This document shows positions 24,058 to 25,431 of a stretch of DNA of 50,148 nt, in pieces; position 1 is the stretch's first letter; every line of letters begins with the position of its first letter. This DNA is from an uncultured Bacillota bacterium. GTDB lineage: Bacteria; Bacillota_I; Bacilli_A; RF39; UBA660. The notes under the pieces were generated by a model. The model was not told the origin of the DNA and did no database searches. It was given only the letters and a program-made list of their open reading frames with translations. A program made the position numbers and the translations under genes. The stretch spans positions 1-50,148 of the forward strand of contig CAMOYT010000006.1 of NCBI GenBank assembly GCA_946630315.1, in the 5' to 3' direction.

Positions 24058-24750
24058 ATGAGGACAAGCATAGAATTAATAAAACAACAAGATCGTATAT
24101 TAAAATTTTTAGCAAAACATCCAGACTATTTTGACGAATGGGAAAAAATGCATATAAGAAGTGGTAGTAAAATAGACTATTCTGGTAAATTTATACCAGA
24201 TATTATGCGTGAATTATTTGCTGAATTAGATTTATTTAAAGAAGATGAAGATATTTATCAAGGCTTTTTAGATTTATTAAAACAAGAATTTGATATTAAT
24301 CAAGATATAGTAGAAATAGGTGGAGGAATCATTCCTAATCTAGCTAAGAGAATTGCTATGGCACAAGAAAAAGGAACTGTAACAGTATACGATCCAAGAC
24401 TAGGAACAACAAAAACAGATATCCCTAATTTAAAACTAAGAAAAGAAAAATTTACTTTGTCTACAGATATTTCAAAAGCTGGACTTGTAGTAGCATTTAT
24501 GCCATGTGAAGCAACAGAAACAATAATTAGAAGTGCAACTTCAAATAAGAAAGATTTTATGCTTGGTTTCTGCGAAGGTGGACCACATGGAGATATATTT
24601 GATTTCTATGAATCAGATGATGAATGGTTACATGCAATGTTATATTATGCAGAAAACCAAATAGAATCAAATAACTTAGGAACATTACAAAAAACATATT
24701 TTAAAAAATATCATGATCCATATCCAATAGTATGGAATAAGAGAGATTGA
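24058..24750 (+). CDS. Rossmann-like protein, possible methyltransferase fold
   Basis: 230 residues, cytosolic, family not recognised. After a helical N-terminal part (1-80), DIVEIGGGIIPNLAKRIA followed by VTVYDPRLG looks like motif I and the acidic end of strand 2 of a class I SAM-dependent methyltransferase. A third strand, AGLVVAFMPCEATETII, and FCEGGPHGD follow. No catalytic NPPY-type motif is present. The ribosome binding site is an unusual GGGGG (24045-24050). Its stop TGA is shared with the -35 of the next promoter. Enzymatic role uncertain. Confidence 0.65.
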   Translation: MRTSIELIKQQDRILKFLAKHPDYFDEWEKMHIRSGSKIDYSGKFIPDIMRELFAELDLFKEDEDIYQGFLDLLKQEFDINQDIVEIGGGIIPNLAKRIAMAQEKGTVTVYDPRLGTTKTDIPNLKLRKEKFTLSTDISKAGLVVAFMPCEATETIIRSATSNKKDFMLGFCEGGPHGDIFDFYESDDEWLHAMLYYAENQIESNNLGTLQKTYFKKYHDPYPIVWNKRD

Positions 24751-24775
24751 CAAAATAGACATTTTATGTTATAAT
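24747..24775 (+). promoter_or_regulatory. Promoter of the riboswitch transcript
   Basis: Consensus TTGACA (24747-24752), overlapping the upstream TGA stop, 17-base spacer, extended TGTTATAAT with TATAAT at 24770-24775. Confidence 0.8.
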
Positions 24776-24783
24776 ATAGACTC

Positions 24784-24893
24784 GTAAATGGGAGTAGTCC
24801 TTAAATGTATTAATACGTCACTACGTTAGAAATAACCGTATTAATAAGATGTAATTCTGGACAAGACTTTTACTATAAAGGTCTTGTCTTTTA
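24784..24893 (+). promoter_or_regulatory. yybP-ykoY (manganese) riboswitch with terminator
   Basis: The aptamer shows the class hallmarks: TGGGAGTAG at 24789-24797, TACGTCACTACGTTA with a GAAA-capped stem and ACCGTA (24814-24840), and ACAAGAC at 24861-24867, matching the GGGGAGUAG...CGUCA...CCG...CAAGAC core of known members. P1 is 24784-24790 with 24867-24873. The 3' P1 strand is also the left arm of a terminator, 24862-24871 with 24877-24886, followed by T's. Metal binding would stabilise P1 and block termination, an ON switch. Mn2+ as ligand is established for the class. Confidence 0.88.
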
Positions 24894-24951
24894 TTTTACT
24901 TTTTTAGTTATGCAAGGCCTTTATAAAACTAAATATAAGGAGGTATGAATA

Positions 24952-25398
24952 ATGGAAAAAGTAAATGTATTTTTAGGAGGAACATGTGCTGATTCAACAT
25001 GGAGAGAAGAATTAATGCCAATGCTAAGTGAACAAGTAGAAGCATTTAATCCAGTTGTGCCAAATTGGACACCAGAATGCCAAGCAGTAGAAGACTTTCA
25101 TAGACAAACAGATGATGTAATAGTATATGTAATTACTCCAGAAGGAGAAGGTTTCTATAGTTTCGTAGAAGTAACAGATGATAGTAACAAGAGACCAGAA
25201 TCAACAGTATTATGTGTACTAGAAAGTGCCAATGGAAAAAGTTTTGAAGGTCATACTCTAAAATGCGTAAGAAAAACAGCTAAGTTAGTTGCTGAAAACG
25301 GAGTAATGGTATTTTCTGATTTACAATCTTTAGCAGCATATCTAAACACAATGTCTAAAGGTCAAATAAACATAAATAAAAATTTAATAAAGAAATAA
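24952..25398 (+). CDS. Nucleoside 2-deoxyribosyltransferase-like protein
   Basis: 148 residues. The N-terminus VFLGGTCADSTWREELMPML, then DDVIVYVITPEGEGFYSFVEVTDD, is typical of the Nuc_deoxyrib_tr_2-like Rossmann domain that binds nucleosides or nucleotides; catalytic Glu/Asp candidates lie in EGFYSFVE. Whether it is a transferase, hydrolase or pure binding protein is unclear. AAGGAGGT (24937-24944) sets the ATG at 24952. It is the only gene before the next terminator, so it alone is under the manganese-type riboswitch, an unexpected pairing. Confidence 0.75.
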   Translation: MEKVNVFLGGTCADSTWREELMPMLSEQVEAFNPVVPNWTPECQAVEDFHRQTDDVIVYVITPEGEGFYSFVEVTDDSNKRPESTVLCVLESANGKSFEGHTLKCVRKTAKLVAENGVMVFSDLQSLAAYLNTMSKGQININKNLIKK

Positions 25399-25404
25399 TA
25401 ATAT

Positions 25405-25431
25405 AAAAAAGCAAGATTCTTGCTTTTTTTT
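25405..25431 (+). terminator. Rho-independent terminator
   Basis: Stem GCAAG (25411-25415) with CTTGC (25419-25423), extended by A-T pairs, then a long T run. Confidence 0.85.

Follow-up and report, generated by a model that had tools for sequence, protein, structure and literature searches.

The window, the whole 50,148-nucleotide stretch of DNA from an uncultured Bacillota bacterium that was analysed, carries at 24784-25398 a single-gene unit: a structured RNA leader, a gene for a nucleoside 2-deoxyribosyltransferase-like (NDT-like) protein and a second terminator. Every part described for this unit in an earlier sequence-only reading is present, and the NDT-like gene is indeed the only one before the next terminator (25405-25429), in support of its being the sole target. 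The stop codon of the preceding gene overlaps the -35 element of the promoter, the transcript is expected to start at about 24782, and the structured leader of 92 nt begins about 7 bases past the promoter end (24775). A similar promoter also precedes the other NDT-type leaders. The features of the locus are as follows.

24747 to 24775, + strand: sigma-70 promoter TTGACA-17-TATAAT, 12 of 12 consensus matches
24783 to 24874, + strand: yybP-ykoY-type aptamer, from covariation, alignment and covariance model R3 (see below)
24784-24790 with 24867-24873, + strand: helix P1.1
24790-24797, + strand: L1 core, GGGAGUAG
24797-24800 with 24859-24862, + strand: helix P1.2
24808-24817 with 24837-24846, + strand: helix P3.1
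24818-24825, + strand: UCACUACG, with loop L3 at 24818-24824, in which A24820 is the equivalent of the Mn-binding A41
24825-24828 with 24833-24836, + strand: helix P3.2
24859 to 24889, + strand: intrinsic terminator of 14 bp, followed by T's
24859-24872, + strand: 5' arm of the terminator (segment A), holding the 3' strands of P1.2 and P1.1
24876-24889, + strand: 3' arm of the terminator (A')
24894 to 24905, + strand: U-rich element UUUUACUUUUUU, able to pair with codons 2-5 (24955-24965) in the predicted fold
24913 to 24925, + strand: segment A'', CAAGGCCUUUAUA, complementary to the terminator 3' arm (24874-24886)
24937 to 24943, + strand: Shine-Dalgarno sequence AAGGAGG
24952 to 25398, + strand: NDT-like protein of 148 aa, PF15891, from Pfam and the predicted NDT fold
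25405 to 25429, + strand: terminator closing the single-gene unit after the NDT-like gene

The encoded protein matches PF15891 (Nuc_deoxyri_tr2) with 39.6 bits against a curated cut-off of 30, and its structure model has good confidence (pLDDT 86). The predicted fold resembles those of 4mcj, which has the nucleoside deoxyribosyltransferase fold (Z 13.4, 119 residues, rmsd 2.3), and of YtoQ (8of6; Z 12.9, 122 residues, rmsd 3.2), while sequence identity to the two is only 11-14%. No sequence relative was found among solved structures, the best E value being 0.07. Residues invariant in the NDT-like protein include E73, D54 and D55. The model thus agrees with an NDT fold, and the protein may have a corresponding enzyme activity. 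A search of 346 genomes from throughout the class gave no copy of the gene outside the host's family. One leaderless NDT-like gene stands last in an operon of vWA, Halogen_Hydrol, unknown and TelA genes (L013:78-4435); a tie to TelA operons was considered and rejected, as TelA occurs in 20 of 39 genus genomes with no clear association.

The leader shares its core with the yybP-ykoY riboswitches (RF00080; L. lactis yoaB, E. coli mntP and alx). It contains the two class-conserved loops, GGGAGUAG in L1 and UCA...CG in L3, the latter with the Mn-binding adenosine at A24820, and these loops are set in the two legs that characterise the known members, P1.1-L1-P1.2 and P3.1-L3-P3.2. Unlike those members, it does not build the usual four-way junction: P2 is absent because the 5' linker, at 7 nt, is too short, and the 3' linker hairpin (P4) is weak, with at most 3 bp. 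In most of the leaders compared, P4 is not clearly above shuffles, and in the alignment other leaders of the host's family form a P2 hairpin but lack P4. A four-way junction with P2 and P4 is typical of the class, though apparently not obligatory. Since exporter leaders such as L087 are also very short where P2 would sit, membership of the class seems not to depend on this arm. The window leader further differs from the known members in scoring below the Rfam model, in its NDT-like target and in an extra segment, A'', at the ribosome site.

The structure of the leader is not due to chance. The folding z-score is -3.65, better than all of 200 shuffles; across nine distinct homologous leaders 95.8% of the cells of the aptamer structure are paired, and 10 pairs have changed on both sides, a number reached by none of 500 shuffles. 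To these is added its standing as the sole match in the window of a covariance model built from exporter leaders, described below.

Membership of the yybP-ykoY class had been proposed from the sequence, with a covariance score below threshold named as the result that would speak against it. The score is indeed below threshold: RF00080 gave no match in the window or at the NDT loci, either at its gathering cut-off of 45 bits, which is a detection threshold and not a biological feature, or at E <=10. E. coli alx and mntP are experimentally proven Mn2+ riboswitches. At the gathering cut-off the same model also misses both of these (L116:10374-10475 and L117:7464-7574), as well as exporter leaders of other Bacilli, and it sees six of 20 exporter-type places in other families, all below the cut-off. 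Because proven members and other Bacilli exporter leaders fail in the same way, the cut-off is unusable as a criterion here, and the low score does not refute the assignment. The wider consequence is that the Rfam cut-off hides many real yybP-ykoY members, not only in Bacilli but also in E. coli.

Three purpose-built covariance models give a clearer picture. R1, built from the nine NDT leaders that were collected via the protein, finds further leaders in 19 of 39 genus genomes and nine of 145 family genomes, and does not reach alx or mntP. R2, built from 41 leaders, matches in 27 of 338 genomes from the host's family and in 83 of 296 class genomes; its best matches in other families precede P-type cation ATPases and CaCA-like exchangers, and cation exporters are the classical targets of yybP-ykoY switches. 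R3 was built from 18 such ATPase or exchanger leaders, all outside the host's family, at loci picked with R2, which had itself been trained on the host's family, so that the sampling is not fully independent; 20 of the 24 pairs in its alignment covary. Within 30 kb of E. coli loci R3 recognises only the proven members mntP (37.3 bits, E 3e-8) and alx (24.0 bits, E 2e-4), and in the 50-kb window the leader under study is the only match (73.4 bits, E 2.9e-18). The other eight NDT leaders are all matched as well (51-68 bits), as are leaders at 38 further loci of the host's family (42-69 bits). Together with the core motifs and the overlap with the terminator, this reciprocal result makes the place of the window leader in the yybP-ykoY class well supported.

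The expression platform follows the layout known for the class, in which the 3' strand of P1.1 lies within the terminator and the metal stabilises P1.1, so that the terminator is blocked (PMC6754395, PMC11087558). In the window the 3' strand of P1.1 (24867-24873) is shared with the terminator stem up to 24872, the same arrangement as in the L. lactis switch, and the published mechanism appears to apply directly. The computed overlap upholds the competition between P1.1 and the terminator that had been read from the sequence; the direction of switching is what we infer from it. When the ligand is absent, segment A would pair with A' and transcription would end at about 24890. A metal ion held between L1 and L3, most likely Mn2+ bound via A24820, would allow P1.1 to form, the terminator would then be blocked, and the NDT-like gene would be transcribed; the switch thus very probably turns this gene on. 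Overall, the best reading of the leader, with a probability of roughly 0.78, is that of a P2-less member of the yybP-ykoY metal-ion riboswitches, an ON switch that works on transcription and serves one NDT-like gene.

The conserved core makes Mn2+ the most likely ligand. In L. lactis, A41 coordinates Mn, and backbone phosphates make the other contacts to the ion (PMC9190785); the equivalent of A41 is A in 39 of the 41 aligned leaders, the window's A24820 among them. U occupies this position, as ACU or UCU in L3, in four leaders (L043:1501-1598, L063:1501-1597, L064:1501-1597 and L048:475-565), three of which are followed by genes of one lipoprotein family. These four may differ in ion specificity, which, as a few leaders of the host's family have no A41 equivalent, may vary within the group. 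Could the window leader use the same fold to sense a different divalent ion, or a cue such as pH? Breaker and colleagues anticipate that some yybP variants have an altered ion specificity, because some of the associated genes are a misfit for Mn2+ (PMC7266159), and the genes behind the leaders in the host's family are mostly not concerned with metal transport. However, the window leader retains both L1 GGGAGUAG and L3 UCA with the A41 equivalent, and phosphates can supply the other contacts, so a retuned switch at this locus is rather unlikely.

It is far less probable that the leader simply attenuates transcription, or gives a small RNA that ends at the terminator and acts in trans, and that its aptamer-like part senses nothing. 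This idea draws on SSRC10 (RF02617), a Streptococcus leader RNA that shares the L3/P3 core and the terminator with the window leader, is filed in Rfam as an sRNA and not as a riboswitch, and was detected on Northern blots (PMC3675131). Its model matches only other leaders of the host's family, at 32-40 bits and below the cut-off. Yet SSRC10 itself has the yybP-ykoY core and stands directly ahead of a putative calcium transporter (PMC3675131), so that it is probably the terminated leader of a yybP-ykoY-type riboswitch. In addition, a simple attenuator would not require such conservation of the L1/L3 core, and leader and gene remain together. An SSRC10 match is seen at L040:1480-1576, and a second, degenerate leader copy with a weak match (33.8 bits) lies just 3' of the first at L039:1633-1735.

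The leader and the NDT-like gene are conserved as a unit. Ten of the 11 NDT-like loci found carry the leader, and the pair recurs in nine species with a distance of about 77-80 nt from aptamer end to start codon, no gene in between, and flanking genes that are almost entirely different, shared ones being essentially limited to the pair L018/L019 and the near-identical L009. The classical targets are exporters, and leaders of the host's family at L070, L072 and L073 still precede CaCA or P-type ATPase genes; nevertheless, that the window holds a relic from which an exporter gene was lost between switch and NDT-like gene, the second objection foreseen for the sequence-only reading, is scarcely credible, because the unit recurs in such differing contexts with this gene-free spacing, under covariation of the leader, and no relative has an exporter there. 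One NDT-type leader (L030:1501-1594, 100 bits) has no NDT-like reading frame in the 1.5 kb behind it and has perhaps a lost or broken target.

To our knowledge, Mn2+ riboswitches have been described almost exclusively in connection with metal transport, and no deoxyribosyltransferase was found in the literature retrieved on yybP-ykoY riboswitches. The host's family offers a broader range. The first genes behind its leaders are NDT-like genes (9), 'GEH' lipoproteins (9), 'HAHKY' lipoproteins (5), SPFH genes (4), a group of four unknown proteins, NfeD (2), CaCA exchangers (2), a P-type ATPase (1) and many single unknowns, with up to six copies of the switch per genome. Given that the same switch precedes lipoproteins, SPFH and other unrelated genes, the suggestion of a specifically Mn-linked nucleotide function at this locus has lost ground. 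The distribution suggests that the switch may have extended its range from genes for metal pumps to many unrelated ones in this group of uncultured gut and rumen bacteria. Since diverse yybP targets were already suspected (PMC7266159), the window switch is a variant and not a new kind: a well-supported member of the Mn2+ riboswitch class, invisible to Rfam, with an unusual target. With the conserved switch standing before NDT-like and other non-transport genes, one can ask by experiment which functions of the cell respond to the ion that it senses, and whether other signals are sensed by some of its copies.

Moreover, the region beyond the terminator may hold a second layer of control. Segment A'' is complementary to A' and, through its CCUUUAUA, also to the Shine-Dalgarno region. 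The A'-A'' complementarity exceeds shuffles in all ten NDT-type leaders (p 0.003-0.02 each) and shows covariation: at three pairs both partners have changed, a result reached by 2 of 500 shuffles. Of 43 other leaders in the host's family, 18 have A'' too; outside the family it occurs in only three of 24, two of them before SPFH genes. Being transcribed past the termination point, A'' can have no influence on termination, and a role in translation or stability is therefore the natural guess. In read-through RNA the freed A' could pair with A'', which otherwise could pair with the Shine-Dalgarno region in a hairpin also covering the first codons. The U-rich element can pair with the first codons at p <=0.01 in six of the eight NDT leaders evaluated, the window's own value being left out of this shuffle test, and fits its own coding start best in L029 and L033. 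The pairing of A'' with the Shine-Dalgarno region is mostly not significant against shuffles in the NDT leaders, and in equilibrium folding A'-A'' clearly frees the Shine-Dalgarno sequence in only two of nine, the window's not among them. A translational layer through A'' is thus possible, and less firmly indicated than the transcriptional one.

A wider picture can be sketched tentatively, at somewhat less than even odds: in the host's family, a yybP-ykoY switch taken out of metal export to form a separate regulon, comprising the NDT-like enzyme, SPFH/NfeD membrane proteins and several lipoprotein families, with up to six copies per genome, some of them altered at the residue that binds Mn, together with a two-level platform where a single RNA segment would govern termination and, via A'', translation.

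Some further observations concern individual loci. In one genome with six copies of the switch (G088), two lie about 0.5 kb apart on one contig (L054:894-981 and L054:1501-1589). T-box leaders stand near riboswitch loci at L018:5144-5326 and L042:530-726 (94.6 bits; 88.1 bits, just below the cut-off). SPFH/Band_7 genes, found behind leaders L089:1501-1604, L098:1501-1603, L040, L053, L055 and L027, are a non-transporter target common to two different families.
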